Below are positions 41,891 to 58,292 of a DNA stretch of 64,000 nucleotides, piece after piece. The notes below the pieces were generated by a model. That model had not been told where the DNA came from. It saw only the letters and a list, made by a program, of their open reading frames with translations, and did not search any database. Both the position numbers and the translations under genes were made by a program. Source of the DNA: Pseudomonas sp. FP2309. Its GTDB lineage: Bacteria > Pseudomonadota > Gammaproteobacteria > Pseudomonadales > Pseudomonadaceae. Numbering within the stretch: position 1 is the stretch's first letter; each line of letters starts with the position of its first letter. Location of the stretch: contig NZ_CP117439.1 in NCBI RefSeq assembly GCF_030687575.1, positions 1,178,001 to 1,242,000 on the forward strand, written 5' to 3'.

Positions 41891-41953
41891 CCCCGCTCAC
41901 ACACTGCCCCCTCATCGTCCCCAAGCAACCCCTGGCCCGGCCCTTGCATTGAC

Positions 41954-41998
41954 CCCCTAAAGCCCATCCGGTCTGCGGATGGGCGCTGCCATTAGGGG
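41954..41998 (+). promoter_or_regulatory. Nested stem-loop leader covering the ribosome-binding site of the arginase-like gene
   Basis: An inner perfect stem GCCCATCCG-GTCTG-CGGATGGGC (41962-41984) is enclosed by an outer stem CCCCTAA (41954-41960) with TTAGGGG (41992-41998). The right outer arm includes AGGGG, the only Shine-Dalgarno-like sequence before the TTG start at 42011. Folding would therefore hide it. It could be a translational switch or a terminator-like remnant of the preceding gene. It does not match the guanidine-II (ACGR loops) pattern. Confidence 0.45.
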
Positions 41999-42010
41999 TG
42001 AAACATTACC

Positions 42011-42931
42011 TTGAATATCCTTGATCTCGACCACAGCCTCACGGCTCAGGCGCCGATTGCGCGGCGCTTGGCCAGTGGCCGTGCCACCCGCATCGACCTG
42101 TTGGACCTGGGCCCCAAATTGCGCCTGTGGTCCACCGAGAAAACCTGGAAGCGCTTCGCCGAGCGCCTGGCCAAACGGCCACGGCCCACGGACGCGCGGC
42201 CGGAAATCCTGTTTGTCGGCTCCGGCGATTATCACCATCTCACGCCTGCGTTCCTCGCCGACCTCAAAGAGCCCATCAGCCTGATCCACTTCGATAACCA
42301 CCCGGACTGGGTGCGCTTTGCGCCCAAGCGCCACTGTGGCTCGTGGGTCAACCGCGCGCTGAAAATGCCGGCGATCAAACGCATCGTCACGCTCGGGCCA
42401 TGCAGCGACGATCTGCATAACCCGCAACTGCGCGGCGGCAACCTGAGTGCCCTCAAGCGCGGGCATTTGCAGCTGTTTCCGTGGCAGCACCCGCCGTCGA
42501 AAGTGTGGGGAAGGGTCGGCGATGGCGCCGGTCACCAGCAGCAGGAAAACTACCTGCACTGGCGCAATCTGGCGGAGTTGGACTGGACGGCGTTTCTTGA
42601 GCAGATGATCACCAGCCTGCCTACCGAGGCGATCTGGATCACTGTCGACAAAGACGTCCTGGCCAGCGAAGACGCGGCCACCAATTGGGACCAGGGCGGT
42701 ATGCGCCTGAGCCATCTGCTGCAAGCCCTGCGGGCGTTGGCGGCGCGCAAGCGCATCATCGGCATCGATGTGTGCGGCGAGTTCGCCGCGCCGGCGTTCA
42801 GCAACGCCTTCAAACGCTGGGAAGCCAAGTCCGACCAGCCGCCGCCGGAGCGCTGGAACCCTGAAGATTTGCAGCGCAATGCCGCCACCAATGAAGCCTT
42901 GATCGAGCTGTTTGAGGAGCTGTTCCCGTGA
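42011..42931 (+). CDS. Arginase-family (ureohydrolase-like) protein
   Basis: This is a 306-residue protein with the ureohydrolase fold. Metal-binding signatures appear in altered form: GSGDYHHLT near residue 76, HFDNHPDW near 98 (DAHxD-like) and WITVDKDVL near 216 (DxDxxD-like). Arginases, agmatinases and formimidoylglutamases cleave guanidino or amidino groups with two Mn ions. The substrate-binding parts differ too much to choose one. The start is TTG at 42011; no ATG fits. It overlaps the first SMR-like transporter by 4 nt, so an amine or guanidine-derived product may be exported by the pair that follows. That role is inference. Confidence 0.75.
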   Translation: MNILDLDHSLTAQAPIARRLASGRATRIDLLDLGPKLRLWSTEKTWKRFAERLAKRPRPTDARPEILFVGSGDYHHLTPAFLADLKEPISLIHFDNHPDWVRFAPKRHCGSWVNRALKMPAIKRIVTLGPCSDDLHNPQLRGGNLSALKRGHLQLFPWQHPPSKVWGRVGDGAGHQQQENYLHWRNLAELDWTAFLEQMITSLPTEAIWITVDKDVLASEDAATNWDQGGMRLSHLLQALRALAARKRIIGIDVCGEFAAPAFSNAFKRWEAKSDQPPPERWNPEDLQRNAATNEALIELFEELFP

Positions 42932-43308
42932 GCCTGACCGTGGTGTTGCTGGTGGCGTTTTCCATCGTGCTCGATGTGATCGGCCAGTTGTGTTTCAAGC
43001 TCGGCCTGGACCGCTTGCCTGAACTGGACGGTGGCTTTCGCCTGAGTGCGTTCTGGGGCCAGGTGTTCAATGCGCCGTTGTTGTGGGCGGGTATCGGGGC
43101 CTACGTCATCGAGTTTTTCGTCTGGCTCGAAGCCTTGTCCCGTGCGCCGTTGAGCCTGTTGTTTCCGGCTGCGGCGCTGGCCTATTGCGGGGTGGTGCTG
43201 GTGGGCAAAGTGGTGCTGGGGGAAACCGTCAGCCGGCGTCGCTGGCTGGGTACGTTGGTGATTACCCTTGGCGTGATGTTGGTGGCAATTGCAGGGAGTC
43301 AGGCATGA
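42928..43308 (+). CDS. EamA/SMR-type small transporter, subunit 1
   Basis: This 126-residue protein has four transmembrane helices, the size of a small multidrug resistance (SMR) subunit or an ArnE/MdtI-like half transporter. The start GTG (MSLTVVLLVAF) overlaps the arginase-like stop. The glutamate in YVIEFFVWLEALSRAPLSLL sits in a helix in the middle of the protein; GETVSRRRWLGT precedes the last helix. It overlaps the next gene by 4 nt. Paired SMR genes usually form heterodimers (EbrAB, MdtIJ), so this and the next gene likely act together. Polyamine or cation export is a guess from the neighbourhood. Confidence 0.8.
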   Translation: MSLTVVLLVAFSIVLDVIGQLCFKLGLDRLPELDGGFRLSAFWGQVFNAPLLWAGIGAYVIEFFVWLEALSRAPLSLLFPAAALAYCGVVLVGKVVLGETVSRRRWLGTLVITLGVMLVAIAGSQA

Positions 43309-43709
43309 AGACGCAAACGATCAATGCGGGTTGGTTGCATGAGCGCCTGGGTACCGTGGTGCTGTGGGCCTTGCTGATCTGTACCGAGAGCGCCGGGCAG
43401 TTGTTCACCAAGGTGGCCGGTGACCAGGTGGGGCAGATGGATTTCGGCTGGTCATGGCTGGCCGATGTGGCGCATAACCCGGCGATCCTGGCGGCGATTG
43501 CCTGCTATATCGGGGCTTTCTTCGTGTGGATGCTGATCCTGCGGCGCAGCAGTCTGTCCCTGGCGTTTCCGCTCAGTTCGCTGGTGTTCGTGGTGGTGCT
43601 GCTGGGGTCGTGGCTGGGGCTGGGGGAACATATCAGCGCGCTGCACTGGGTGGGAGTCGCGGTGATTATTGGCGGGATTGCGCTGTTGGCCGAAGGTGAA
43701 GAGAACTGA
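43305..43709 (+). CDS. EamA/SMR-type small transporter, subunit 2
   Basis: This is a 134-residue protein with an N-terminal 15-residue cytoplasmic stretch and four transmembrane helices. It is homologous to subunit 1; compare RRSSLSLAFPLSSLVF with SRAPLSLLFPAAALAY and GEHISALHWVGVAVI with GETVSRRRWLGTLVI. A Glu in helix 1 (CTESAGQLF) may be the proton/substrate coupling residue of SMR proteins; subunit 1 has Asp at the matching place (LDVIGQLCF). Complementary charges at this position fit a heterodimer. It ends the three-gene operon; a common Pseudomonas repeat follows. Confidence 0.8.
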   Translation: MKTQTINAGWLHERLGTVVLWALLICTESAGQLFTKVAGDQVGQMDFGWSWLADVAHNPAILAAIACYIGAFFVWMLILRRSSLSLAFPLSSLVFVVVLLGSWLGLGEHISALHWVGVAVIIGGIALLAEGEEN

Positions 43710-43716
43710 CCGACTG

Positions 43717-43822
43717 GATCGTTCCCACTTCGCGTGGGAATGCCTCTTGTGACGCTCTGCGTCACGCTTTGGGACGCGGAGCGTCCACTGGCTGCATTCC
43801 CACGCGGAGCGTGGGAACGATC
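43717..43822. repeat. Interspersed palindromic Pseudomonas repeat
   Basis: A 106-bp block begins GATCGTTCCCAC and ends in its inverse GTGGGAACGATC. It contains two internal hairpins: GTGACGCTCTGCGTCAC and GGACGCGGAGCGTCC. This nested palindrome is a frequent intergenic element in Pseudomonas genomes. It lies between the convergent transporter and MipA genes and may also act as a terminator. Confidence 0.8.
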
Positions 43823-43836
43823 AGGACCCGTGTGAG

Positions 43837-44592
43837 TTAGTCGAAGGTGTAGCTGATCGCCGTCTGCACCTGGCCCTGGTTCACGTCACCGGCCTGTTTG
43901 ACGATGCTGCTGTTCGCCGCCGAGCCCACCAGATGCACCCAGCTGGCACTGGTCAGCAACGACCAGTGGGGTGCCAGGGGCAACTGGAAACTCTGGCTCA
44001 GCGTCACGTTCTGAAACCCGCCGCTGGCGTTGTAGGGCTTGAAACCGGTGGCGGCCGCCTCGTGGTCATCCACCCCGAAAAACGTCTGGGTCTGGCGTGC
44101 ATCGGCAAAATGCGCCACCAGGCCGCTGCTGCCGATGACGCCGCCGCCCAGCGGGTAGCCCAGCTCGCCGCCGATTTTGCCCAGCGCACCGCTCTGCGCG
44201 TGACCACCGCCGACCGCCTGGCCCAGCTGTGCATAGACGCGCCAGAAGTCAGCCGGAGCGTACTGGATAAACCCCCCGACCTCGGCCATGTCCGACACAT
44301 TGCGCAGCCCCTGCAATGAGCCGTTGGAGGTGCGGCCCTGCAGGTAATTGATGTACGGCCCGGCGCTCAAGCCGTGGGTGTTCAGCGCGCTCCACGCCAA
44401 GCCGTCGTCGGTGCCCAGGCTCACAGCACCCCAGTCCAGATCGAGATAGGGCACCGGCCGGGTTTCATAGCGGCTGCCGGTCGGGTCATGAGGTTGGTAG
44501 CTGACGCCTGCGCCGACGTCGCCGGTGATGCCTTGGGCCTGCGCGGTGAGGCTCAGTAAGCCGGCCAGTGCAGCGCATGTGATCCGCAACAT
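43837..44592 (-). CDS. MipA/OmpV-family outer-membrane protein
   Basis: This is a 251-residue protein with a signal peptide (MLRITCAALAGLLSLTAQA). The start at 44592 is chosen for that signal; the frame stays open 54 codons upstream without signal features. The mature part is rich in aromatic and alternating residues and ends with ISYTFD, a C-terminal Phe-type beta-barrel ending as in OmpV/MipA proteins. Members scaffold murein hydrolases/synthases or act as small porins, and many are induced by two-component systems. It is divergent from the sigma-54 operon at 44820; the intervening gap holds an 18-bp dyad 73-90 nt before its start, so co-regulation is plausible. Confidence 0.82.
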   Translation of the reverse strand: MLRITCAALAGLLSLTAQAQGITGDVGAGVSYQPHDPTGSRYETRPVPYLDLDWGAVSLGTDDGLAWSALNTHGLSAGPYINYLQGRTSNGSLQGLRNVSDMAEVGGFIQYAPADFWRVYAQLGQAVGGGHAQSGALGKIGGELGYPLGGGVIGSSGLVAHFADARQTQTFFGVDDHEAAATGFKPYNASGGFQNVTLSQSFQLPLAPHWSLLTSASWVHLVGSAANSSIVKQAGDVNQGQVQTAISYTFD

Positions 44593-44664
44593 GGTCACAG
44601 TTCCTTGAGTGAATACACGCGCATGAACGCGCAAACCGGCGCGCCTGTGCAAGCACTCATCTTG

Positions 44665-44682
44665 TTTGTAGCAAGCTACAAA
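44665..44682. promoter_or_regulatory. Inverted repeat, candidate activator site (UAS) for the sigma-54 operon
   Basis: TTTGTAGC-AA-GCTACAAA is a perfect 8-bp dyad with a 2-nt spacer; another TTGTAGC half-site follows at 44685-44691. It ends 74 nt before the -24 element, the range used by sigma-54 enhancer-binding proteins, and lies between the mipA-like gene and the operon. The obvious ligand is the response regulator at the end of that operon. That assignment is inference. Confidence 0.5.
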
Positions 44683-44755
44683 AATTGTAGCTGTTGCGAC
44701 ACAAAACCCCTGGGCGCATCGAGAAAAACCCCGGCCACGCTGGGCTTGCGCCAAT

Positions 44756-44771
44756 TGGCACAGTCCCTGCT
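44756..44771 (+). promoter_or_regulatory. Sigma-54 (-24/-12) promoter
   Basis: TGGCACAGTCCCTGCT matches the consensus TGGCAC-N5-TTGCW with one base difference, and the GG and GC dinucleotides are exactly 10 bases apart (44757-44758, 44769-44770). The start codon follows 49 nt after. The operon it drives ends in a GAFTGA-containing sigma-54 activator. Confidence 0.85.
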
Positions 44772-44819
44772 CTAGCCCTGTTGAACGCGCAGACAGCGCA
44801 CTCCTTCAGGGTAACCGCA

Positions 44820-45533
44820 ATGATTGACTGGCATATCGTGTGCGACTTCGACGGGACCATCACCCCCACCGACGTCATCGACAACGTCCTCCAACGCTTC
44901 GCCGCGCCGGAGTGGGAAACCATCGAACAGCAATGGTTGGATGGGCACATCGGTTCCCGCGAATGCCTGAGCCGCCAGCTGTCGCTGATCAAGGCTACGC
45001 CCGCCGAGCTGCTGGCGTACTTCGACAGTGTTGAGATCGACCCGGACTTCCCGGACTTCGTCGATCATGTGATCGGCCTGGGCGCCTCCCTCGAGGTCGT
45101 CAGCGACGGCATCGAGCAAGGCATCGCGCGGATTCTGTCGCGCAACTACGTGAGCCTGTTGCCGATCCTCGCCAACCGCCTGCGTCAGGTTGACCAGAAC
45201 AGCTGGCGCATCGACTTCCCTTATTCAAGCGATGCCTGCCGCGCTGCGTCGGGCAACTGCAAGTGCAAATCCACCCCGCGCAACAAGCGCGTGTTGGTGA
45301 TCGGTGACGGCAAGTCCGACATGTGCGTGGCCTCAACCGCCGACTTTGTATTCGCCAAGGGCAGCCTCGCCGAGTACTGCGTCGCCCACAGCATTCCCCA
45401 TGCGCGTTTCGACAGCTTTGCCCAATTGCCGGCGTTGCTCGCGCAACTGCCGCACAGCATTGCTGCCAACGCCACCTCCTTTACGACTGCTGACCTCTCT
45501 ATTGAAAATCAGGAACTCTTCCATCATGTCTGA
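44820..45533 (+). CDS. MtnX-like HAD-IB phosphatase
   Basis: This is a 237-residue HAD-superfamily phosphatase. Motif I is CDFDGTITPTD (residues 8-18), motif II is VVSDG near residue 96, and motif III is VIGDGKSDMCVA near residue 161. A cysteine-rich insertion (CRAASGNCKCK, near 141) is seen in MtnX-like enzymes and may bind metal. Family members dephosphorylate small keto-phosphates or phosphoserine-like metabolites; the true substrate is not evident. The start has AGGGT upstream. It is the first gene behind the sigma-54 promoter and overlaps the aminotransferase by 8 nt, implying tight coupling. Confidence 0.85.
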   Translation: MIDWHIVCDFDGTITPTDVIDNVLQRFAAPEWETIEQQWLDGHIGSRECLSRQLSLIKATPAELLAYFDSVEIDPDFPDFVDHVIGLGASLEVVSDGIEQGIARILSRNYVSLLPILANRLRQVDQNSWRIDFPYSSDACRAASGNCKCKSTPRNKRVLVIGDGKSDMCVASTADFVFAKGSLAEYCVAHSIPHARFDSFAQLPALLAQLPHSIAANATSFTTADLSIENQELFHHV

Positions 45534-46920
45534 TATCCGCATCGCTACTGCCGAAGACCAGATCCTTCTGGATAAAGAAGCCAAATATTGCTCCTACGGC
45601 GACACCGTCCACTACATCGAGCCGCCGCGTATTTTCAGCCGTTGCGAAGGCTCCTATGTGTGGGACACCGAAGACCAGGCCTACCTCGACCTGCAAATGT
45701 GGTACTCGGCCGTCAACTTCGGCTACGCCAACCCGCGCCTGAACAACGCGCTGAAACAGCAGATCGACACCCTGCCGCAAATCGCCAGCCAGTACCTGCA
45801 CAAGGGCAAGATCGAGCTGTCGGAAATGATCGCGGTGGACGCCAAGAACAAATTCGGCCTCGACGGCCGCGTGCACTTCAACGTCGGCGGCTCGCAATCC
45901 ATCGAGGACTCACTGAAAGTGGTGCGCAACGCCACCAACGGCAAGAGCCTGATGTTCGCCTTCGAAGGCGGTTACCACGGGCGCACCCTCGGCGCGTCGT
46001 CGATCACGTCCAGCTACCGCTACCGTCGTCGTTACGGCCACTTCGGCGAGCGCGCGCAGTTCATCCCGTTCCCGTATCACTTCCGTGGCCCCAAAGGCAT
46101 GACGAAAGAGGAATACGGCAGCCACTGCGTGCAGCAATTCGCCCGCCTGTTCGAGACCGAATACAACGGCGTGTGGGACCCGAAAGTCGGTCAGAGCGAA
46201 TACGCCGCGTTTTACGTAGAGCCGATCCAGGGCACGGGCGGTTATGTCATCCCGCCGATGAACTTTTATCGCGAGCTCAAGCATGTGCTCGATCAGCACG
46301 GCATCCTGATGGTGTCCGACGAAATCCAGATGGGCTTCTACCGCACCGGCAAGCTGTGGTCGATCGAACACTTCGATGTGCAGCCGGATGTGATCGTGTT
46401 CGGCAAGGCGCTGACCAACGGCCTCAACCCACTGGGCGGGATCTGGGCCCGTGAAGAGTTGATCAACCCGAAGATCTTCCCGCCAGGCTCCACCCACTCC
46501 ACCTTCGCGTCCAACCCGTTGGGCACGGCGGTCGGCCTGGAAATGTTCAAGATGACCAACGAAGTCGACTACGGCGCGATGGTCATGGCCAAGGGCAAAT
46601 ACTTCCTGGAAGGCCTGCAGGACCTGCAAAAACGCTTCCCGATCATTGGCGACGTCGACGGCCTGGGCCTGGCGCTGCGCTGCGAAATCTGTGGCCCGGA
46701 TGGCTTCACGCCGGACAAGGCGACCCTGGACTATATGGTCGAGGAAGGCATGAAGGGCGACATGCTGGTGGACGGGCGCAAACTCGGGCTGATCCTCGAC
46801 GTGGGCGGCTACTACAAGAACGTGATCACCCTGGCGCCGTCCCTGGAAATCAGCTACCCGGAGATAGAATTGGGGCTCAAGCTGCTCGAGCAACTGCTGG
46901 TGCGAGCGACCACACGGTGA
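45526..46920 (+). CDS. Class III PLP-dependent aminotransferase
   Basis: This is a 464-residue fold-type I aminotransferase. PLP-site features are GGSQSIEDSLK near residue 124, AFEGGYHGRTLGASS near 145, EPIQGTGGYVIPP near 233, SDEIQMGFYRTG near 265 and the Schiff-base Lys294 in FGKALTNG. The protein groups with ornithine/acetylornithine-type omega-amino acid transaminases but its exact amine donor is not clear. ATG at 45526 (MSDIRIATAEDQ) lies inside the end of the phosphatase gene; its stop overlaps the next gene's GTG by 3 nt. Phosphatase, transaminase and hydrolase together suggest formation of an amino compound from a phosphorylated keto precursor. Confidence 0.9.
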   Translation: MSDIRIATAEDQILLDKEAKYCSYGDTVHYIEPPRIFSRCEGSYVWDTEDQAYLDLQMWYSAVNFGYANPRLNNALKQQIDTLPQIASQYLHKGKIELSEMIAVDAKNKFGLDGRVHFNVGGSQSIEDSLKVVRNATNGKSLMFAFEGGYHGRTLGASSITSSYRYRRRYGHFGERAQFIPFPYHFRGPKGMTKEEYGSHCVQQFARLFETEYNGVWDPKVGQSEYAAFYVEPIQGTGGYVIPPMNFYRELKHVLDQHGILMVSDEIQMGFYRTGKLWSIEHFDVQPDVIVFGKALTNGLNPLGGIWAREELINPKIFPPGSTHSTFASNPLGTAVGLEMFKMTNEVDYGAMVMAKGKYFLEGLQDLQKRFPIIGDVDGLGLALRCEICGPDGFTPDKATLDYMVEEGMKGDMLVDGRKLGLILDVGGYYKNVITLAPSLEISYPEIELGLKLLEQLLVRATTR

Positions 46921-47843
46921 ACAGCGCTGAGATCGACCTCGGTGAAGGTGATGCCGGCTTCGTTCTCGGTGACGGTCCGGTCGGGATCCTGTTGATCCAC
47001 GGCCTGACCGGCACCCCGACTGAACTGCGCCAGGTCGCCAAAGGCCTGGCGAAGGTGGGCAATTGCTCGGTGTACGTGCCCACGCTGGCCGGGCATTGCG
47101 GCGACAACAGCGACCTGCAAGCCACTGGCTGGCGGGACTGGTACGAAGGCGTGCGCAAGACCTTCGTGCAGATCAAGCGGCGCCACGGGCAGGTGTTTGT
47201 CGGCGGGTTGTCCATGGGGGCGGTGATGTCGATGTACTTGGCGTCCGAGCATCCGGGGCAGGTCGCGGGGTTGTTGTTGTATTCGACCACCCTGAAGTAC
47301 GACGGTTGGAGCATCAGCAAGATGGCGTTCATCACGCCGCTGCTGATCCGCATTCCGTTCGGCGTGCGCTTGTTCCGTTTCACCGAGAAGCCGCCCTACG
47401 GCATCAAGAATGAACGCCTGCGGGCCATCGTCGAGCGCCAGATGAAAGAGGGCGAGAGCAGCGAGGCCGGCTTGCTGACCATGGAAGGCGTCACCGTGCG
47501 CGAGTTGCACTGGATGAACGCGGTGGTCAAAAAGCGCATGCCGCAAATAAAGGTTCCGGCCCTGGTGCTGCACTCCATCGAGGACGACATCACCAGTCGT
47601 TGGAACGCCGACTACGTGGAACGCCACCTCGGCGGGCCGGTGACCAAGATCCTGTTGGACAACTGCTACCACATGATCACCGTCGACTTGCAATACCGAC
47701 GGGTGATTGAACTGAGTGCCGAGTTCATCAGCCGGCAAGTGTCATGCAGTGAGCAGGGCTGTAATGAGCAGGGCTGTGGTGCTGAGCAGGCTTGTCCCGC
47801 GCTGGGCTGCGAAGCCGCCCCAAAACCTGCCATCGCGGTGTAG
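46917..47843 (+). CDS. Alpha/beta hydrolase (carboxylesterase/monoacylglycerol lipase-like) with repeat-encoded tail
   Basis: This is a 308-residue cytoplasmic hydrolase like Est30/CarE and monoglyceride lipases. Motifs are LLIHGLTGTP (oxyanion hole, near residue 25), GGLSMGAVMS (nucleophile Ser, near 98), SIEDDIT (Asp, near 222) and the His in YHMITVD (near 252). GTG at 46917 overlaps the upstream stop. The last ~30 residues (from about SCSEQGCNEQGCG) are encoded by a REP-type repeat and are Cys-rich and low complexity, so the natural family C-terminus is probably near residue 277. Acyl or ester cleavage of the pathway product is the likely role. Confidence 0.82.
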   Translation: MNSAEIDLGEGDAGFVLGDGPVGILLIHGLTGTPTELRQVAKGLAKVGNCSVYVPTLAGHCGDNSDLQATGWRDWYEGVRKTFVQIKRRHGQVFVGGLSMGAVMSMYLASEHPGQVAGLLLYSTTLKYDGWSISKMAFITPLLIRIPFGVRLFRFTEKPPYGIKNERLRAIVERQMKEGESSEAGLLTMEGVTVRELHWMNAVVKKRMPQIKVPALVLHSIEDDITSRWNADYVERHLGGPVTKILLDNCYHMITVDLQYRRVIELSAEFISRQVSCSEQGCNEQGCGAEQACPALGCEAAPKPAIAV

Positions 47844-47890
47844 CTGGAGAAACTCATTGCCGGAATAGGGCTGCTGCGCAGCCCTGCTCA
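47783..47890. repeat. REP-type inverted repeat, overlapping the hydrolase 3' end
   Basis: TGAGCAGGCTTGTCCCGCGC followed by TGGGCTGCGAAGCCGCCCC (47783-47822) is related to the doublet at 11381-11506; its inverse partner (core CTGCTGCGCAGCCCTGCTCA) lies at 47867-47890. Its left arm is translated as the hydrolase tail. Short GAGCAGGGCTGT repeats at 47755-47780 extend it. Confidence 0.7.
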
Positions 47891-47955
47891 CCACAAAACA
47901 GCCTTTTCCCACACGTACTCTTTCCCCACAAGAACGCCAATTGGAAGCAACTGTG

Positions 47956-49077
47956 ATCACCACCCAAGCCTTCCCGACCATAAGGGCCATCCAGCGCAGT
48001 GCCTGGAACGACTGTTTTCCGGGGGCATTGGAGGACTGGGACTACTACGTCGCCGTGGAAAACGCCGCCATGGATGATTTTCAGTGGCGCTACCTCGCGG
48101 TTTACGAAGATGGAACGTTGGTGGCGGTCGCGCCGGCGTTCATCACCCATTACCGCCTCGACACTACGGTGTCCGGCGCGGGCAAGCGGTTGACCGAGCG
48201 CCTGGAGCGGCTGTGGCCTGGCGTCCTGCAATTGGGGCTGTATGCCATCGGCTCGCCGGTGGCCGAGCGCTGTGATGCCGGTTTTGCCGGTCACGTTCCC
48301 ACGTCGCGCCGCCCGCTGTTGCTCAAGCACGTGCTGGACGTCGCGCGCCACGATGCCGATGACTTCGGTATCGGCCTGGTGGCGGTCAAGGACGCGCCGA
48401 GCAACGATTCCCACTGGCTGGAGAGTTGTCGCGCGGCCGGTTTCCAGACCATGCCGAGCCTGCCCACCGGTGTGCTGCCGTTGCCCTATGGCTCGGTGGA
48501 CGCCTACCTCGGCTCCCTGGGCAAATCCACCCGCAAGGACCTGCGCCGCAAACTGCGTGCGCCGGGCCCACGGGTGGAATGGCGGCGCAATATCGATGAC
48601 GTGCTGCCCGAGGTCATGCGCCTGTACGAGGCCACGCTGAGTCGCGCCGAGTTGCAGTTCGAACGCTTGCCCGCGAGCTATTTCACCGGTGTGCTCGAAC
48701 GCCTTGAAGCACGGGCGGTGTGTGCGCTTTACTGGGTGGACGAGCAATTGGTGGCTTTCAACTTGATGCTGGTGGACGAACACCGGCTGGTGGACAAGTT
48801 TTTCGGGCATGACGTGGCGTTCAGTCGCGACTACAACCTGTATTTCCGCAGCTGGCTGACCAACGTCGATTACTGTATTGAGCACAACATTGCGCTGTAC
48901 GAGTGCGGCCAGGCCGGGTATGCCAGTAAGCTGCGCCTGGGCTGCGAGTTCCAGGGCAACAATGTGTTTTTTCGCCACCGCAACCGGCTGGTCAACGGCC
49001 TGCTCAAGCTCGTAAAACTGTTTATTCGACCGGACCGTTCCGACCCTGCCATGGCTGCTGCGATAAGCGAAACCTGA
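47956..49077 (+). CDS. GNAT/FemAB-like acyltransferase
   Basis: This is a 373-residue protein with the two-lobed GNAT arrangement of FemAB-type acyl/aminoacyl transferases. The N-terminal lobe holds FQWRYLAVYEDGTLVAVAPA, and the C-terminal lobe holds STRKDLRRKLRAPGPRVEW, then YWVDEQLVAFNLMLVDEHRL, with the acceptor-side ALYECGQAGYASKLRLGCE near residue 315. The GTG at 47956 with GGAAG before it is preferred over a TTG five codons earlier. The REP repeat separates it from the hydrolase. It starts a strictly coupled stretch: its stop TGA overlaps the kinase ATG. It may N-acylate the amine made by the aminotransferase; this is inference. Confidence 0.75.
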   Translation: MTTQAFPTIRAIQRSAWNDCFPGALEDWDYYVAVENAAMDDFQWRYLAVYEDGTLVAVAPAFITHYRLDTTVSGAGKRLTERLERLWPGVLQLGLYAIGSPVAERCDAGFAGHVPTSRRPLLLKHVLDVARHDADDFGIGLVAVKDAPSNDSHWLESCRAAGFQTMPSLPTGVLPLPYGSVDAYLGSLGKSTRKDLRRKLRAPGPRVEWRRNIDDVLPEVMRLYEATLSRAELQFERLPASYFTGVLERLEARAVCALYWVDEQLVAFNLMLVDEHRLVDKFFGHDVAFSRDYNLYFRSWLTNVDYCIEHNIALYECGQAGYASKLRLGCEFQGNNVFFRHRNRLVNGLLKLVKLFIRPDRSDPAMAAAISET

Positions 49078-50846
49078 TGATCACCAAGACCCGCCAGAAA
49101 GCCCGCCCCTTCGCCATTTCACGCTGGAGCGTCCAGCGCAAGCTGGTGCTGGCGTTCTGGTTGGTCAGTGTCATTCCCACCATGATCGCCGCGGAGCTGG
49201 CGGCCACCACGCTGTCGCAGATTTTCGACAGCAACGTACGCATCTGGCTGCAGGAGTCGACCAAGATCGTCAAGGACGAGATTGGCGACATCCTTCATGA
49301 CAACGCGCGCATGGCCAAACTGTTCCTGCGCTACACCAGCCCGCCTTCCAGCAAACAAGCGGCCAAGCACGACCGGTTGACGGCGGATATCGCCGATGCC
49401 ACGGATATCGACGTGGTCGCACTGATCCGCGTCAGCGACCACAAAACCGTGTTCAGCACCGCCTCCGACGACATCGTCAAACAGATCAGCCTGACCAGCA
49501 ATGCGGTGTTGCAGACCGTGCAAGTGGCGGGGGTGAGCACCGGTATTGTGGTCTCCACTTTTGACACCACCCAGGACGGCGTCGACTACCAGTTGTTGGT
49601 GGCCACCTACCTGGACAGCAGCTTCCTCACCAGCGTGGCCGATGTGCATTCCCTCGACCTGCGCCTGTACCTGGCCAACCCGGACGGCTTCTCGGAAATC
49701 TTTTCGACTCAACGTTTCGAGGACCACCCGTCGCGCATTCCCAAGAATGTCGAGACTGCCATGCGCGCCACCCGCCAGCCCAGCGAGCAGTTCACCAATA
49801 ACTACAGCGGCTTGTACTGGCCGATCTTCAGTGATGCCGGTGACCTGCAAGGCGTGATTTTCAGCGGCCTGTTGCGCCACACCAGCCTGGTGGGGCTGGT
49901 CAACCAGAGCAATCTGTTCGTGCTGATCTTTTTGCTCAGCTCGGCGCTGTCATTGGCGGCGGGGGTATTGGTGTCACGTCGCCTGACCCGGCCGTTGCGG
50001 GATTTGTCCCAGGGCGTGGGCGCGGTGATTTCCGGCAACTACACCCACCGCGTGGCGGTCAGCGGTGGCGACGAACTGGCGCAATTGAGCAGCACCTTCA
50101 ACCACATGACCGAGCGCCTGGGGGAGTTGCATCACCTGGAGGCCCAGTTGCGCCGCCGTGACCGCCTGCACGCACTGGGAGAAGTGGCCATGGGCCTGGC
50201 CCACGAGATCCGCAACCCTCTGGGTATTATTAAAACCGCCACTCAGTTGCTGCACCGCCGCGCCGACTTGCCGGACAGCGACAAACGCCACCTGGAATAC
50301 GTGATCAGCGAAGTCAGCCGCATCAACGAATTGATCACCGAGTTTCTCGACTTCGCCAAACCCAACCCGCCGCTGCGCGTTTTGCAGGCGGCGCGCCCGC
50401 TGGTGGAGGAGATCCTCGGTTTTTGTGCGCCGGAACTGGCGAGCCATAACATTGATGCGCAGCTCGATGACCAGTCCCCTGGCGCGACGATCTATGCCGA
50501 TGCCAAACAACTCAAGCAGGCCTGCCTCAACCTGATTCTCAACGCCATCGACGCGATGCCCGACGGCGGACGCCTGACCCTGGCGATTCGCACGGTCGAT
50601 GCCAACACCGTGATCAGCATCGCCGACACCGGCCAGGGCATCGCCGCCGAGATGGTCGAGCGCATCTTCACGCCCTTTGTCACCACCAAGGCCTCGGGTA
50701 CGGGGTTGGGGCTGGCTAAAGTCTATTCGATCATGGAAAGTCACGACGGCAGCATCGAATGTGCCAGCGAGAAGGATGCAGGCGCCACCTTCAGCCTGTA
50801 CATTCCGGCGATTGGCGAAGACGACGAGGACACGCATGACGCATAA
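49077..50846 (+). CDS. Membrane sensor histidine kinase (partner of the sigma-54 regulator)
   Basis: This is a 589-residue kinase. Membrane span 1 is at about residues 21-45, with a periplasmic dCache-like sensor region at 46-275. Span 2 (LFVLIFLLSSALSLAAGVLV) is at about 281-300, then a HAMP domain (RRLTRPLRDLSQGVGAVISG). The dimerisation domain has His376 in GLAHEIRNPLG, and the ATPase has NLILNAIDAM, ADTGQGI, FVTTKASGTGLGLA. It belongs to the NtrB/AtoS-like group, which pairs with sigma-54 activators. It overlaps both neighbours (1 nt and 11 nt), so it is co-expressed with the enzymes it presumably controls. The ligand is unknown. Confidence 0.9.
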   Translation: MITKTRQKARPFAISRWSVQRKLVLAFWLVSVIPTMIAAELAATTLSQIFDSNVRIWLQESTKIVKDEIGDILHDNARMAKLFLRYTSPPSSKQAAKHDRLTADIADATDIDVVALIRVSDHKTVFSTASDDIVKQISLTSNAVLQTVQVAGVSTGIVVSTFDTTQDGVDYQLLVATYLDSSFLTSVADVHSLDLRLYLANPDGFSEIFSTQRFEDHPSRIPKNVETAMRATRQPSEQFTNNYSGLYWPIFSDAGDLQGVIFSGLLRHTSLVGLVNQSNLFVLIFLLSSALSLAAGVLVSRRLTRPLRDLSQGVGAVISGNYTHRVAVSGGDELAQLSSTFNHMTERLGELHHLEAQLRRRDRLHALGEVAMGLAHEIRNPLGIIKTATQLLHRRADLPDSDKRHLEYVISEVSRINELITEFLDFAKPNPPLRVLQAARPLVEEILGFCAPELASHNIDAQLDDQSPGATIYADAKQLKQACLNLILNAIDAMPDGGRLTLAIRTVDANTVISIADTGQGIAAEMVERIFTPFVTTKASGTGLGLAKVYSIMESHDGSIECASEKDAGATFSLYIPAIGEDDEDTHDA

Positions 50847-52236
50847 CATTCTGGTGGTCGACGACGAACCCAAGCTGTGTGACCTGCTGGCATCGGCCCT
50901 GGGCCAGAACGGCGTCCAGGTGTTCATTGCCGGCAACGGCCTGCACGCGCTCAAGGTGCTGGAGCAGGAAGACATCGATCTGGTGATCAGCGACTGGCGC
51001 ATGCCGGGCATGGACGGGCCGGCGCTGCTGGCCGAGATCAAGGTGCGTTACCCGCATGTGCCGGTCATTGTGATGACCGCCTACAGCACCGTTAAAAATG
51101 CCGTGCAGTCGATGCGCAACGGCGCCTACGACTACATCGCCAAACCGTTCGACATTGACGAGCTGGACATCACCGTGGCCAAGGCCCTGCAGTTTCGCGA
51201 CATCATGCGCGACAACGCACGCTTGCGCGCCGAGTTGGACGCCCATGCGCAGTTCGACAGCCTGGTGGGTGACAGTCCGGCGTTTCGCAAGGTGCTGCAA
51301 GCGGTGGACTCGGTGCGTGACAGCAGCGCCACCATCCTGCTGACCGGTGAAAGCGGCACCGGCAAGGAAATGGTCGCCCGCGCGATTCACAAGCACGGCA
51401 GCCGTGCCGACCAACCCTTCGTGGCGGTCAACTGCGCGGCGATCCCCGAAGGCCTGCTGGAAAGCGAGATGTTCGGCCATCGTAAAGGTGCGTTTACCGG
51501 CGCCGTGGCCGACCGGGTCGGACGCTTTATGCAAGCGGACAAGGGCACGTTGTTTCTCGACGAAGTGGGCGACATGCCCCTGGCCCTGCAAGCCAAAATC
51601 CTGCGCGCTTTGCAGGAGCGCGTGATCGAGCCGGTGGGCGACCCTCGCGAGCGCAAGGTGGACGTGCGGGTGATTGCGGCCACCAACAAAAACCTGTTGG
51701 ACGCGGTGGCCAACAAGGAATTTCGCGAAGACCTGTATTACCGCCTCAACGTGTTTCCGATCCCGCTGCCGGCCTTGCGCGAGCGCGTGGAAGACATCGC
51801 GCCGCTGGCACGCCACTTCGCCCACACCCTCAGCGCCACCGCCGGCAAGCGCATCACCGGCTTCAGCCCCGAGGCTTTGCAGGCGATGGCGGCCTACCAC
51901 TGGCCGGGCAATATCCGCGAGCTGCAAAACTGTGTGGAGCGCGCGACCATCGTCGCGGCGTCACCGGTGATCGAAGACATCGATTTGCCGGGTTACCTGT
52001 TTGCGTCCAAACCGAGCGGAGAGGGCGGGGCGGCGGCGATCCTGAGCGAGGGGCCGGGGATTCCACAGGACCTGGATGCGGCGCTGGCGGAGGTGGAGAA
52101 GGCTTATATTCTGGCAGCGCTGCAGGAGAGCAATGGGGTGCAGGCAGCGGCCGCGGCGAAGATCGGGATCTCGGAGCGCAGCTTTTGGTATCGCTTGAAG
52201 AAGCTGGGGATTCAGGTGGACAAGATCGTCCGCTGA
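50836..52236 (+). CDS. Sigma-54-dependent response regulator (NtrC-type)
   Basis: This is a 466-residue activator. The receiver domain (1 to about 120) has Asp53 in VISDWRMPGMDG. The AAA+ domain has the Walker A GESGTGKE near residue 172, the sigma-54 contact GAFTGA at 218-223, Walker B LFLDEVGD near 238 and the arginine-finger region. The C-terminal Fis-type HTH includes AAAAAKIGISERSFWYRLKK. The start ATG at 50836 follows the kinase's last codons; in-frame starts further up would disrupt the receiver. As last gene of an operon with a sigma-54 promoter it probably activates its own operon through the dyad at 44665-44682. Confidence 0.92.
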   Translation: MTHNILVVDDEPKLCDLLASALGQNGVQVFIAGNGLHALKVLEQEDIDLVISDWRMPGMDGPALLAEIKVRYPHVPVIVMTAYSTVKNAVQSMRNGAYDYIAKPFDIDELDITVAKALQFRDIMRDNARLRAELDAHAQFDSLVGDSPAFRKVLQAVDSVRDSSATILLTGESGTGKEMVARAIHKHGSRADQPFVAVNCAAIPEGLLESEMFGHRKGAFTGAVADRVGRFMQADKGTLFLDEVGDMPLALQAKILRALQERVIEPVGDPRERKVDVRVIAATNKNLLDAVANKEFREDLYYRLNVFPIPLPALRERVEDIAPLARHFAHTLSATAGKRITGFSPEALQAMAAYHWPGNIRELQNCVERATIVAASPVIEDIDLPGYLFASKPSGEGGAAAILSEGPGIPQDLDAALAEVEKAYILAALQESNGVQAAAAAKIGISERSFWYRLKKLGIQVDKIVR

Positions 52237-52270
52237 GTCAGTCGGGACAAAAGCGGGGGAGCGTGGTGGG

Positions 52271-52609
52271 TCAGGTGTGGATGCGCACCCAGATGCTCAC
52301 CAATAGCGTTGCGGCCATCAGCCAAGCGACCGCCGCGATCGCTAAAGACGCCTCCAGCCGCATCCGGTCCACCATCACATACAACGTCGCCAAATACACA
52401 AAGTACGGAATGATCGACCACATCCCGAACAGGATCGTGGTCTTCAAGTCTTCTACCGAGCGGCCCTTGCCGACGATGTAGTGGGCGATCAGTGCGAAGG
52501 TGGGGAACAGCGGCACCAAGCCTGCGATGTAGTAGTTTTTGGTCTTGGCCAGCGCCGCCAGGATCAGCACCACCGCCGCGCCGAGGGCGGCCTTCAGCAA
52601 TAAATCCAT
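52271..52609 (-). CDS. glpM: GlpM family small membrane protein
   Basis: This is a 112-residue hydrophobic protein with four predicted transmembrane helices (MDLLLKAALGAAVVLIL at the start). PLFPTFALIAHYIVGKGRS and ILFGMWSIIPYFVYL identify the GlpM family, first named in P. aeruginosa near glpD and implicated in alginate production. Its role is not settled. Its ATG overlaps the aauR stop by one base (TGATGG), so it is translationally coupled to an acidic amino acid regulator rather than placed with the glp genes 7 kb away. It is convergent with the sigma-54 regulator gene. Confidence 0.85.
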   Translation of the reverse strand: MDLLLKAALGAAVVLILAALAKTKNYYIAGLVPLFPTFALIAHYIVGKGRSVEDLKTTILFGMWSIIPYFVYLATLYVMVDRMRLEASLAIAAVAWLMAATLLVSIWVRIHT

Positions 52610-53958
52610 CAGTGGCCCAACCCGTATTTCTTGACCTTGTCGAACAGGGTGGTCTTGGCCATGCCCAGTTCCTGGCTGGCCTGGGTCAGGTTGCCGCCGC
52701 TGCGTTGCAGGGCGTCGCTGAGCAGGTTGCGTTCAAAGGCTTCCACCGCTTCGGTAAAGGCCAGGCCGTGGCTGCCGCTGCTGGCGCCGCTTTTCTTGAA
52801 GGCGGGCAGGCCCAGGGCGAAACGCTCGGCGACGTTGCGCAGTTCGCGCACGTTGCCGGGCCAGTCGTGGCTCATCAGGCTGGACAGGGTCTGGTTGTCC
52901 AGCTCCGGCACGGTTCGGTCAAAACGCAGGGATGACTGCTGCAGGAAGTGTTCGAACAGCTGCAGAATGTCTTCACGGCGCTCGCGCAGGGGCGGCAGTT
53001 CCAGGGTGACCACATTGAGGCGGTAATACAGGTCGCTGCGGAACTGGCTGGCGCGGCTCAGTTCGTCGAGGTCCGATTTGGTGGCGGCGATCACTCGGCA
53101 GTCCACGGCCACGCTTTGGTTCGAGCCCAGGCGTTCCAATGTGCGTTCCTGCAACACCCGCAGCAATTTGATCTGCAGGTTGATCGGCATGCTTTCCACT
53201 TCATCGAGGAACAGCGTGCCTTCGTGGGCGTGTTCGATCTTGCCGATGCGCCGCTTGCCCGCGCCGGTGAAGGCGTTGGCTTCGTGGCCGAAAATCTCGC
53301 TTTCGAACAGGTTCTCCGGCAGGCCACCGCAGTTGAGGGCGACGAACTGGTGCGCGTGGCGCCGACTGAAATCATGCAGGCAGCGGGCGACCAGTTCCTT
53401 GCCGGTGCCGGTTTCACCTTCGATCAGCACGTTGGCCGAGGTGTCGGCGACGTTGGCGATCAGTTCGCGCAGGTTCTGCATGGCCGGCGAGCGACCGATG
53501 ATGCGGCCTTCCAGGGAGTCACGCTCGGCCAACTGGCGGCGCAGCGACCAGACTTCCCGCGCCAGCCCGCGTTGTTCGAGGGCGCGCCGGGCGACCTCCA
53601 CCAGGCGTTCCGGGGAGAAGGGTTTTTCCATGAAATCGTAAGCGCCATTGCGCATCGCGCCGACGGCCATGGAGATATCGCCATGCCCGGTGATCAGCAC
53701 CACCGGCAGGCTTTTATCCAGGGCCTTGAGGCGGGTGAGCAGCTCCAGGCCGTCGATGCCCGGCAGGCGAATATCGCTGATCACAATGCCGGCGAAGTTC
53801 TCGCCGATGCGCTTGAGCGCCTCTTCGGCACTGCCCACGCCCACGCTGTGGATGTCTTCCAGGGCCAGGGCTTGCTGGCAGCCGAGCAGCACATGGGGGT
53901 CGTCTTCGACGATCAGCACGGTGAGGTCATTGGCAGGGGCTGTCGCGTCTATATTCAT
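52609..53958 (-). CDS. aauR: AauR, sigma-54 response regulator for acidic amino acid use
   Basis: This is a 449-residue DctD-type activator. Receiver domain: LTVLIVEDDPHVLLGCQQAL with Asp in VISDIRLPGIDG. AAA+ domain: GETGTGKE near residue 180, Walker B LFLDEVES. The C-terminal HTH ends NLTQASQELGMAKTTLFDKV. The sigma-54 contact motif reads NAFTGA, not GAFTGA: Asn228 replaces the first Gly. In Pseudomonas AauSR activates the aat glutamate/aspartate transporter, and a TTCGG-N4-CCGAA site lies upstream of aatJ here. Its start overlaps the aauS stop by 4 nt. Orthology to AauR is inferred from family and context. Confidence 0.87.
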   Translation of the reverse strand: MNIDATAPANDLTVLIVEDDPHVLLGCQQALALEDIHSVGVGSAEEALKRIGENFAGIVISDIRLPGIDGLELLTRLKALDKSLPVVLITGHGDISMAVGAMRNGAYDFMEKPFSPERLVEVARRALEQRGLAREVWSLRRQLAERDSLEGRIIGRSPAMQNLRELIANVADTSANVLIEGETGTGKELVARCLHDFSRRHAHQFVALNCGGLPENLFESEIFGHEANAFTGAGKRRIGKIEHAHEGTLFLDEVESMPINLQIKLLRVLQERTLERLGSNQSVAVDCRVIAATKSDLDELSRASQFRSDLYYRLNVVTLELPPLRERREDILQLFEHFLQQSSLRFDRTVPELDNQTLSSLMSHDWPGNVRELRNVAERFALGLPAFKKSGASSGSHGLAFTEAVEAFERNLLSDALQRSGGNLTQASQELGMAKTTLFDKVKKYGLGH

Positions 53959-55859
53959 GTCGACTCAGCTAAATGAGCGCCCGCCAACGGCAGGCTCAGG
54001 ACAAAGGCGGTACCACCACTGGCCGGGTGTTCCACGGCCAGATTGCCGCCGGTGGCGGCCGCGAGGCTGGCGGACAGGGTGAGGCCAAGGCCCAGGCCTT
54101 GCTCACCGGGTTTGGTGGTGAAGAACGGTTCGAACAAATGCTTGCGCGCCTCGGGGTCGATGCCGTGGCCATTGTCGCGTACGCACAGGCGATATTTGCC
54201 TTCGTTGCTGCTGCCTTCCAGCCAGAGTTCGGGGGCCGGTTGCGCCTGCATGGCGTCGAGGGCGTTGCCGATCAGGTTGACCAGGATCTGCTCCAGGCGT
54301 GTCTGGTCGATCTGCAATTGGGCCGGTGTGAAGTTGCGATGCAGGGTCAGCGGCAGGCTGTCCAGGCGCGCGCCGAGCACCTGGAACGCGGCGTCCACGG
54401 CCTTGACGAGGCTGGCTTCGCCCTGATCATCGCCGCGCCGGGCGAAGGAGCGCAGGCTGGCGGTGATGCGGCCCATGCGGTCGATCAGTTCGTTGATGGT
54501 CTTGAGGTTGGCGCTGGCGGTGTCCAGCGCACCGCGCTCGAGGAAGCGCACGGTATTGCCGGACAAGGTGCGCAGCGCGGCCAGCGGTTGGTTCAGTTCA
54601 TGGGCGATGCTGGTGGACATCTGACCAATGGCCGCAAGTTTACCGGCCTGTACCAGTTCGTCCTGGGCACGGCGCAGGGTTTCTTCGGCCTGGCGGCGTT
54701 CGCGGATCTGGCCCTTGAGCCGTTCGTTGCTGGCGCGCAGGTCGGCGGTGCGTTCGGTGATGCGTCGCTCCAGCTGGCTGTTGGCTTCCTGCAAGGCTTC
54801 CCGCGCGGCGAGGCGGGTGGCGATGACCTTGCGTCGCTCGTTCCAGGCAATCAGCAAGAAGGCCACCAAGCCAAAGGCTACCGCCACCAGGATGCCTTGG
54901 TTGATGGCGGCGCGGCGCAGGTCGTTGAGCGGGGTGAGCAGGGTAAAATTCCACGGTGTGTCGTTGAGCGGGCGGGTTTGCGCCAGGTAACTGACTTCGT
55001 GCTCGTCGTTGACCACTTCGCTGTTGGCCGGGAAGGTCAGTTTTTCGCTGCGTTCGTTCAGGCGCTCGCGGGCCAGGGGTTCCAGCTCGTTCAATGTGGC
55101 CCAGTAATATTGCAGGCTGTGGGCCAGACGTTCTTTGGTCTCATCGCTCAGCGGTCGCACCGCCTTGAGACGGCGCGCCGGGTCGCTGGAGAGGATGATG
55201 ATGCCGTTCTCGTCGCTTACAAAGGCTTCGAGACGCGCACGTTGCCAGCGTTCTTCCAGGGCTTCGAGGCGCACTTTGACCACGGCCACGCCGATGATCT
55301 TGCCGTGCTCTTCCAGGCCGTGGGCCAGGTAGTAGCCAGGCTCGCCGTTGGTACTGCCGATGCCGTAGAAGCGCCCGGGACGGCCGCGCACGGCGTTCTG
55401 GAAATAGGCGCGAAAGGACAGGTCTTCACCTTGGTAACTGTCGGCATCGCGCCAGTTACTGGTGGCCAGTACGCGACCGGTGGTGTCCATCACGTAGATG
55501 GCCCGGCTGCGACTGCGTCGGTTCAGGCCTTCGAGGTAATCGTTGACGGTTTGCCGCACGCCCTGGTCCGGCTCGGCCAGCAACTGCGAGACGCTGGACT
55601 CCAGCTCCAGCAGGCTGGGCAGGTAGGTGTATTTGCTGATTTCACTTTCGACGGTGCGGGCATGCAGCTCCAGCTGGCGTTCGCCATTGTCGCTGAGGGT
55701 GCGGATGCCGTAGTACTCGCTGATCCAGAAGCCGATATAACCCAGGCCGATCATCAGGGCGATGATCAACGGCGGCAGGAACAGTTGGCGAATCAGACGA
55801 GGTTTCACGGCAAGTGATGGCGGTGCGGCGCGAAATTGGTTGGGGTCGCATTTCATCAC
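53955..55859 (-). CDS. aauS: AauS, sensor kinase for acidic amino acids
   Basis: This is a 634-residue DctB-like kinase. Membrane span 1 (LFLPPLIIALMIGLGYIGF) is at about residues 26-44. The periplasmic double-PAS-like domain (about 50-315) includes VLATSNWRDADSYQGEDLSF. Span 2 is at about 325-342, then a coiled coil (RAAREALQEANSQLERRITE region). The H-box ISTSIAHELNQPLAALR-type segment is MSTSIAHELNQPLAA near residue 415, and the ATPase has NLIGNALDAM, DNGHGI, FTTKPGEQGLGLGL. It overlaps aauR by 4 nt. A REP element separates it from aatP; in P. aeruginosa ggt and ansB lie in that gap, but here they are absent. Confidence 0.88.
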   Translation of the reverse strand: MMKCDPNQFRAAPPSLAVKPRLIRQLFLPPLIIALMIGLGYIGFWISEYYGIRTLSDNGERQLELHARTVESEISKYTYLPSLLELESSVSQLLAEPDQGVRQTVNDYLEGLNRRSRSRAIYVMDTTGRVLATSNWRDADSYQGEDLSFRAYFQNAVRGRPGRFYGIGSTNGEPGYYLAHGLEEHGKIIGVAVVKVRLEALEERWQRARLEAFVSDENGIIILSSDPARRLKAVRPLSDETKERLAHSLQYYWATLNELEPLARERLNERSEKLTFPANSEVVNDEHEVSYLAQTRPLNDTPWNFTLLTPLNDLRRAAINQGILVAVAFGLVAFLLIAWNERRKVIATRLAAREALQEANSQLERRITERTADLRASNERLKGQIRERRQAEETLRRAQDELVQAGKLAAIGQMSTSIAHELNQPLAALRTLSGNTVRFLERGALDTASANLKTINELIDRMGRITASLRSFARRGDDQGEASLVKAVDAAFQVLGARLDSLPLTLHRNFTPAQLQIDQTRLEQILVNLIGNALDAMQAQPAPELWLEGSSNEGKYRLCVRDNGHGIDPEARKHLFEPFFTTKPGEQGLGLGLTLSASLAAATGGNLAVEHPASGGTAFVLSLPLAGAHLAEST

Positions 55860-55888
55860 AGATGCCTTGGGTCAACCAGAGCTGCCAG

Positions 55889-55913: not shown

Positions 55914-55949
55914 ATTGGCCATGTTTCTACAGTGGGAGCTGTCTGGTAC

Positions 55950-58275: not shown

Positions 58276-58292
58276 ATAAGGTTAGTCAGGAA

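Follow-up and report, generated by a model that had tools for sequence, protein, structure and literature searches.

A conserved sigma-54-controlled gene set in Pseudomonas sp. FP2309 as a candidate signal-responsive biosynthesis-and-export system

The window analyzed here, i.e., the whole stretch of 64,000 nucleotides (nt) of the soil bacterium Pseudomonas sp. FP2309 (NZ_CP117439.1, positions 1,178,001 to 1,242,000, forward strand), contains a set of genes for a phosphatase (HAD), an aminotransferase-like enzyme (AT3), an alpha/beta hydrolase (ABH), a transferase (FEM), a sensor kinase (HK) and a sigma-54 activator (RR) (Table 1). A reading made from the letters alone (the sequence-only reading) had described these six genes as a sigma-54 operon controlled by its own two-component system, and the six open reading frames (ORFs) and the types of protein they encode were borne out by Pfam and NCBIfam. 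The boundaries of the unit have to be moved, since the functional unit reaches upstream to 42011 and takes in the arginase-like gene and the two EamA-type genes that had been left out. This operon (42011-43709) is assigned to the system because relatives keep these genes together. The divergent MipA gene, which adjoins HAD in Pseudomonas loci, probably belongs to the system as well. Control of MipA by sigma-54 was rejected, as no minus-strand box with at most two mismatches was found between 42453 and 49349.

Table 1. Genes and sequence elements of the locus, in window coordinates; PFLU numbers are those of P. fluorescens SBW25.
Feature	Coordinates	Strand	Basis or equivalent
HAD: MtnX-like HAD-IB phosphatase	44820..45533	+	TIGR01489; PFLU1127 by position
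AT3: class III pyridoxal phosphate (PLP) aminotransferase-like, distinct subfamily	45526..46920	+	PF00202; PFLU1128 by position
ABH: alpha/beta hydrolase, monoacylglycerol-lipase-like, Cys-rich tail	46917..47843	+	PFLU1129 by position
FEM: double-GNAT transferase, FemX/MprF fold, GTG start	47953..49077	+	PF04339, PF13480; PFLU1130 equivalent
HK: sensor kinase, periplasmic double-Cache-like domain	49077..50846	+	PFLU1131 equivalent
RR: NtrC/AtoC-family sigma-54 activator, GAFTGA	50836..52236	+	PFLU1132 equivalent
Arginase-like (ureohydrolase-fold) hydrolase, TTG start	42011..42931	+	PF00491
DMT1: small EamA-like membrane protein	42928..43308	+	similarity to DMT2, position
DMT2: second small EamA/ArnE-F-like protein	43305..43709	+	EamA, ArnE/ArnF models
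MipA/OmpV outer-membrane protein, divergent, possible system member	43837..44592	-	PF06629
Regulator site, three alternating half-sites	44665..44691	+	
Sigma-54 box TGGCAC-N5-CTGCT	44756..44771	+	
Second sigma-54 box TGGCCC-N5-TTGCA, 5' of the arginase-like operon	41933..41948	+	
Structured mRNA leader, outer stem CCCCTAA/TTAGGGG	41954..41998	+	

Upstream of HAD, the two elements that the sequence-only reading had pointed out are both present, i.e., a sigma-54 box, TGGCACAGTCCCTGCT, which matches 10 of 11 consensus positions, and a perfect dyad, TTTGTAGC-AA-GCTACAAA, at 44665-44682. The dyad as drawn is real, but it is only part of an array of three half-sites, TTGTAGC-AA-GCTACAA-AAA-TTGTAGC, in which it overlaps a 17-bp dyad at 44675-44691. 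It is the sole match in the window at up to three mismatches (shuffled sequences gave a mean of 0.08, with a match in 8 of 100 shuffles). Genome-wide, no other place matches at fewer than three mismatches, and three more match at three; as a control, the backward pattern also gives 6 matches per strand. The sigma-54 pattern alone is weak, with 35 matches in the window at up to two mismatches vs. 51 expected. The case for dyad and box rests on their conservation across loci.

This conservation was scored in the 260 nt 5' of HAD in 75 loci (L056-L130), all from Pseudomonas except one metagenome contig titled Gammaproteobacteria (L127); the counts for 74 loci leave out L067, a rearranged partial copy with no ATG at the expected place. 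Array and box are kept together in all 74. Out of 16 positions, the first dyad scores 16 in 46 loci, 15 in 21 and 14 in 7, and the 17-bp dyad, GCTACAA-N3-TTGTAGC, scores 14 out of 14 in 47 loci, 13 in 26 and 12 in 1. The equivalents of the box at 44756 match a -24/-12 promoter, with its GG and GC and their spacing conserved, at 10 of 11 positions in 73 loci and at 9 in the remaining one. The distance to the box is 79-80 (21 loci), 89-92 (50), 101-102 (2) or, in one outlier, 146 for the first dyad, and 69-70 (21), 79-82 (50), 91-92 (2) or 136 (1) for the 17-bp dyad. These distances step by about one helical turn and so keep the array on a roughly constant face of the helix, like an upstream activator site. 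The genes, whose order the sequence-only reading had also proposed to check in other Pseudomonas genomes, hold together in relatives.

Across the genome, the 17-bp dyad has one exact copy, none with one mismatch and seven with two, and at up to three mismatches the backward control outnumbers the pattern (366 vs. 108 matches). Given this single exact copy, one site stands out as the regulator's own target. Comparison was extended to 26 distant AT3 loci (L131-L157 without L153, where AT3 is 55% identical and none of the other genes was found), each considered within 10 kb; a contig end truncates several of these loci, and some of the queries were taken from L154, L156 and L157. Apart from L067 and L153, all loci retrieved, among them an initial set of 80, were used. 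The 17-bp dyad precedes the core genes in Nevskia L131 (13/14), L133 (14/14), Hydrocarboniphaga L135 (12/14), and L138 and L140 (12/14 each). HAD was scored in 23 of the distant loci. A sigma-54 box matching at least 9 of 11 positions precedes it in all six of these that contain HK-RR (L131, L133, L135, L136, L138 and L150) and in only 2 of the 17 that lack the pair. Of the latter 2, L140 is cut off by a contig edge beside ABH, and in L149 another NtrC-type regulator (33% identity) lies close by. The regulatory part of the proposal is well supported by these comparisons, and RR very probably controls the promoter at 44756.

Whether all six genes are transcribed together is another matter. Four of the five junctions overlap, but the end of ABH (47843) and the GTG start of FEM (47953) are separated by a gap of 109 nt. 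Because of this gap, the presumed six-gene operon splits, and HAD-AT3-ABH and FEM-HK-RR are probably two separate transcription units here. In the available parts of a publication on SBW25, the equivalent genes are assigned to separate operons, PFLU1127/8/9 and PFLU1130/1/2, and a Rho-dependent terminator is predicted to lie between the two (PMC10621929). Patterns for sigma-70 promoters and for intrinsic terminators were both absent from 47700-48100, and thus no promoter for FEM and no terminator were located. The notion of a self-regulated operon does find a counterpart in six distant loci (L131, L133, L135, L136, L138 and L150), where HK-RR follows HAD-AT3 in one direction; it may therefore be the older arrangement.

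RR consists of a receiver, a sigma-54 AAA+ domain and a Fis-type helix-turn-helix domain and is thus a member of the NtrC/AtoC family; the GAFTGA motif, as had been predicted, is present at residue 218. The periplasmic domain of HK has a double-Cache-like fold. HK is encoded by 1770 bp and carries GEVAM at residues 368-372, exactly as stated for PFLU1131 in the available text (PMC10621929), and HK and RR are the orthologues of PFLU1131 and PFLU1132 of P. fluorescens SBW25. The regulator has been studied before, as RR corresponds to the PFLU1132 of the motility-rewiring work. As far as the available text goes, PFLU1132 appears in print solely as an activator that was rewired to flagellar genes, and its native targets are stated to be unknown; the same source reports a predicted RpoN site upstream of PFLU1127 and up-regulation of PFLU1130/1/2 by a mutation in PFLU1131 (PMC10621929). 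Three further papers mention these genes, and their available parts name no enzyme function or target (PMC10482368, PMC13325599, PMC9234803). We propose that the native target of PFLU1132 is the PFLU1127 promoter, i.e., the promoter of HAD-AT3-ABH. Downstream of RR, on the minus strand (52609-59336), lies another two-component pair of the NtrC type, and the ORFs behind it resemble by eye an amino-acid ABC importer; by position, this pair is the aauR (PFLU1134) locus, as judged from the available part of PMC10482368.

The upstream operon has a sigma-54 promoter of its own. The box at 41933 shows one mismatch to the consensus, and it matches at 10 of 11 positions in 39 loci and at 9 in one (n = 40, those of L056-L130 in which the arginase-like gene is present and sufficient upstream DNA is available). 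Where this gene is missing and DMT1 comes first, a box matching at least 9 of 11 positions is kept in 12 of 14 loci, and a displaced copy of the operon (L208) also retains it. The mRNA leader behind the box is conserved, and in most of 39 distinct leaders its outer stem covers the likely Shine-Dalgarno run. Folding gave a median z of -2.4, with 23 of the 39 below -2 (100 shuffles each). RNAalifold, run on 15 leaders, indicated weak covariation (term -0.07), with both partners altered in 4 of 15 pairs, and an Rfam scan of 41600-52700 yielded one chance-level match and none at the leader, which is not claimed here as a riboswitch. A stem over the ribosome-binding run and a TTG start are seen together in this segment (41933-41998; L056-L130) and suggest possible translational control of the arginase-like operon.

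The arginase-like protein belongs to the arginase/ureohydrolase superfamily, both by its Pfam score (PF00491, 38.8 bits vs. a cut-off of 22) and by its presumed metal ligands, which we take to be among the residues H75/H76, D95, H97, D99, D213 and D215, conserved in at least 95% of a 209-sequence alignment. No solved relative was found by sequence. In a tblastn-type match, DMT1 and DMT2 share 36% identity; the position of DMT1 is conserved, and similar genes are annotated as EamA in Xanthomonas and Agrobacterium; DMT2 scores 26.3 bits with the EamA model, below the cut-off of 28.2.

As for the core enzymes, HAD is an MtnX-like HAD-IB protein (TIGR01489, 84.5 bits vs. a cut-off of 81.55) with DxD and GDxxxD motifs (D9/D11 and D163/D167) that are conserved in at least 95% of 100 sequences. 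A role in methionine salvage was rejected, both by the equivalog scores (106.5 vs. 292 and 89.7 vs. 303.2 bits) and because no adjoining gene belongs by family to that pathway. In AT3, T237 and T435 are invariant in all 223 aligned sequences, many of which are close kin, and an Arg-rich stretch is almost as constant (R165 and R167 in 223, R168 in 221, R169 in 222). Among the five solved class III chains shown, the four that cover the position of Thr435 have an Arg there. This switch Arg of other class III aminotransferases binds the alpha-carboxylate. AT3 lacks this mark of the 2-oxoglutarate-using enzymes, so a plain gamma-aminobutyrate (GABA) or ornithine transaminase was rejected; AT3 represents a separate and strongly conserved subfamily in which the canonical switch arginine is missing. 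It is found at 71-79% identity on 34 plasmids, 26 of which are from Rhizobium and Agrobacterium. The best solved match of ABH is 4lhe (4.5e-29, residues 11-120), and its S99, D223/D224 and H252 are conserved in 98 sequences. The C-terminus of ABH (47742-47843) forms a Cys-rich tail of approximately residues 276-301, which lies outside many pairwise alignments to relatives. P. libanensis DSM 17149, which has the standard locus (L079), also contains L067, a rearranged further copy of HAD-AT3-ABH that lacks the usual upstream site.

The gene set is spread in the Pseudomonadota, in both alpha- and gammaproteobacteria, including Pseudomonas, Xanthomonas, Rhizobium, Agrobacterium, Bartonella from bats, and Nevskia. 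Near AT3 in the 26 distant loci, ABH was found 24 times, HAD 23, EamA-type transporters 16, and a GNAT and an arginase-like gene 15 times each; DegT-type genes and HlyD/ABC/FtsX genes occur in 10 loci each (TolC in 8 of the latter 10), an acyl carrier protein (ACP) plus a ketosynthase in 6, HK-RR in 6, and MipA in 2. In L138, the genes run in one direction as HAD-AT3-arginase-DMT1-ABH-FEM-DMT2-HK-RR. The order on the Agrobacterium plasmid pAspH13-3a is HAD-AT3-arginase-EamA-ABH-GNAT-EamA-TolC-ABC permease-ABC ATPase-HlyD, and a Xanthomonas sacchari plasmid carries, in addition to the set, genes for ACP, ketosynthase, DegT and an exporter.

The predicted model of FEM (predicted local distance difference test score 89.8) has FemX, Sbb17 and MprF as its top fold matches and shows the double-GNAT fold of FemABX and other aminoacyl-tRNA-dependent transferases. 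An acetyl-CoA-type GNAT was rejected as the first reading, since in fold comparison, the FemX-type matches outrank the CoA-dependent ones. The sequence-only reading supposed that an amine is made and then acylated; formation of an amine followed by N-acylation fits the enzymes, but given the nearest folds of FEM the acylation may consist in the addition of an amino acid.

FEM proved to be optional: it is present here, and several Pseudomonas loci have no such gene between ABH and HK. In a survey of 199 Pseudomonas genomes (AT3 at E 1e-150, FEM orthologues at at least 62%, arginase-like genes at E 1e-10), AT3 was found in 60, FEM in 49 and the arginase-like gene in 46, and all carriers of the latter two fall among the 60. 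Within these 60, both genes are present in 46 genomes, FEM only in 4, the arginase-like gene only in none, and neither in 10, when the GNAT of a second locus, locus B, is counted as FEM; with the local FEM only, the numbers are 45, 4, 1 and 10, and in the 26 distant loci 14, 1, 1 and 10. The counts come from lists compiled by hand; two locus-B genes, the GNAT of L194 and the arginase-like gene of L201, escaped the ORF caller. HAD-AT3-ABH thus appears to be the core, and FEM together with the arginase-like enzyme an optional tailoring module.

Locus B (L194-L196, L201-L205, L209) is a separate, Xanthomonas-type GNAT-arginase/DegT-EamA-EamA locus found in 9 of the 199 genomes. The arginase-like genes accordingly divide into the local type in 37 genomes and the locus-B type in 9. 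No locus-B genome shows the local gene, which looks like module replacement; one arginase-like match per genome was scored, so that no genome could show both types. Seven FEM-lacking loci (L092, L093, L096, L101, L109, L113 and L123) have before DMT1 a short stretch that by eye resembles the start of the arginase-like gene and still lies behind the sigma-54 box; this suggests a joint loss of both tailoring genes.

Taken together, the double-Cache-like periplasmic domain of HK would sense a ligand, and phosphorylated RR would bind the TTGTAGC array ~65-90 bp upstream of the box and open the sigma-54 promoter at 44756 for the expression of HAD-AT3-ABH. The second sigma-54 promoter would provide the arginase-like hydrolase and the two small EamA-type transporters. 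AT3 may aminate a phosphorylated carbonyl compound and HAD remove its phosphate, or the two may act in reverse order; ABH could trim or release an acyl or ester group, FEM could transfer an amino acid from aminoacyl-tRNA to the amine, and the arginase-like enzyme could hydrolyze a C-N group in the product. Transport across the inner membrane would fall to the EamA-type pair, with MipA possibly as an outer-membrane part. We lean toward this reading of the locus as one signal-responsive biosynthesis-and-export system. That the upstream operon is part of a single system appears about as probable as the control of the 44756 promoter by RR, and biosynthesis rather than catabolism is reasonably likely; an aminopolyol or aminolipid as the product is a guess. 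No pathway with this gene set could be named from the sequence, and none was found described in the open-access literature, searched by titles and starts of abstracts, with most subscription papers outside that scope.

Several observations weigh against the proposed system. The enzyme roles are those predicted from sequence, and no substrate follows from it. The matches of HK to Cache domains are of middling Z (12.5), and L136 and L150 contain HK-RR and no site of at least 12/14. In the PFLU1131 mutant, according to the available text (PMC10621929), 54% of the RpoN-activator-controlled genes were up-regulated, so induction in this mutant is not specific. A TTGTAGC site at the arginase-like promoter was rejected, as none was found: there is no dyad within 300 bp of it, and even in P. 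viridiflava p11.D4 (L208), where the operon lies on another contig, there is none at 10/14 within 1.5 kb. Thus, RR may not control that promoter. FEM occurs without an arginase-like gene in 4 of the 60 AT3 genomes, and the Fisher values for the co-occurrence of the two (1e-8, 1e-7 and 2e-5) overstate the evidence, since the genomes are related. Neither the ABC-TolC exporter (10/26) nor the ACP and ketosynthase (6/26) of the distant loci is encoded among the ORFs adjoining the window genes, and the FtsX-type exporter permease L143:12775-13908 had no match in this genome at E 0.001, in a search without a positive control.

One competing reading is not biosynthetic. In Pseudomonas, nutrient use is a frequent target of sigma-54 two-component pairs, and phosphatases of the HAD type, aminotransferases and hydrolases are common in catabolism; the locus could accordingly serve the uptake and breakdown of an external phosphorylated amine or amino-lipid headgroup, with HK sensing the nutrient in the manner of NtrC or AauR. 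The aauR locus next door, identified by position from the available part of PMC10482368, and the importer-like ORFs seen by eye behind it fit such a role. Yet the conserved set includes no recurring uptake system, the transporters that do recur are the EamA pairs and, in 10 of the 26 distant loci, HlyD-ABC-FtsX (with TolC in 8), ACP and ketosynthase accompany AT3 in 6 of them, and the nearest folds of FEM build amide or ester bonds. We therefore regard catabolism as rather unlikely. Two special cases of the proposed biosynthetic system concern its product. Modification of the envelope with a cationic lipid or headgroup, following the logic of MprF and Arn, would alter surface charge, with export by the ArnE/F-like pair and MipA; MprF scores below FemX and Sbb17, however, the ArnE/F cut-offs are not reached, the recurring set shows no glycosyl- or phosphotransferase, and a shared fold does not show a substrate, which leaves this case somewhat unlikely.

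In the other special case, AT3 would convert dihydroxyacetone phosphate to serinol phosphate, HAD would yield serinol, and FEM would acylate it. The presence of HAD with AT3 in 23 of the 26 distant loci agrees with this route, the Arg-rich stretch of AT3 (R165, R167, R168, R169) could bind a phosphate, and there are precedents, as far as the available texts go, in the N-terminal domain of RtxA, which makes serinol phosphate (PMC3222319), and in Campylobacter Cj1437 with the HAD phosphatase Cj1435 (PMC11800397). RtxA, however, prefers glutamate as the donor (PMC3222319), whereas AT3 has Thr in place of the alpha-carboxylate-binding Arg; the serinol route seems improbable.

Peptide arginases turn peptide-bound arginine into ornithine. 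A more specific and quite speculative version of the proposed system is that the core makes an amine scaffold, to which FEM adds arginine from Arg-tRNA, that the attached arginine is then turned into ornithine by the arginase-like enzyme, that the cationic product is exported by the EamA pair, and that the double-Cache-like kinase reads the product or the acceptor. If true, this would be a widespread, undescribed aminoacyl-tRNA-dependent pathway, and sensing of its product or acceptor would be the natural role of PFLU1131/PFLU1132. The proposed system offers a concrete native target, a site and an enzyme set for a transcription factor used in experimental evolution without a known purpose, and it defines a conserved set in which a FemX-fold transferase is combined with an arginase-like enzyme and an unusual class III PLP enzyme.

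Elsewhere in the window, an usher-like ORF, three similar ORFs of ~410 aa and a chaperone-like ORF (3445-11271, plus strand) look by eye like a cluster for fimbriae in which adhesin-type genes are repeated, and two ORFs of 1705 and 1715 aa (11573-21983, minus strand), paralogous by eye, contain leucine-rich-repeat-like stretches.

The proposed system shares parts with several known ones. HAD resembles the MtnX phosphatase of methionine salvage as a member of the HAD-IB superfamily, with 2fea as a solved relative. AT3 shares its fold family, Lys294 and the PLP-site motifs with class III aminotransferases for GABA and ornithine and with the alanine/serine racemase of Pyrococcus, and differs from them in having Thr435 for the switch Arg and Thr237 at the partner position; its best equivalog score is about half the cut-off (275 vs. 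552 bits). FEM is only 10-19% identical to FemX/FemA, Sbb17/Sba18 and MprF/aaPGS. Like ArnE/ArnF flippases and paired SMR exporters, DMT1 and DMT2 are two adjacent small EamA-like proteins; DMT2 stays below the ArnE/ArnF equivalog cut-offs (38.0 vs. 92 and 37.5 vs. 99), and Arn sugar genes are not in the recurring set. HK and RR have the architecture of AtoS-AtoC and other NtrC-type systems, and AtoC is the best NCBIfam match of RR (483 bits); the scores are below the equivalog cut-offs (714 for AtoC, and 224.7 vs. 646 for HK with AtoS), and site and targets differ. The products of PFLU1127/8/9 and the further upstream operon are not discussed in the available text on SBW25 (PMC10621929). The likeness of the two loci includes A375 in HK, D111 in RR and a GNAT gene before HK, and it extends to the neighbors, with PFLU1127/8/9 matching by position, PFLU1130 as the GNAT, and PFLU1132.

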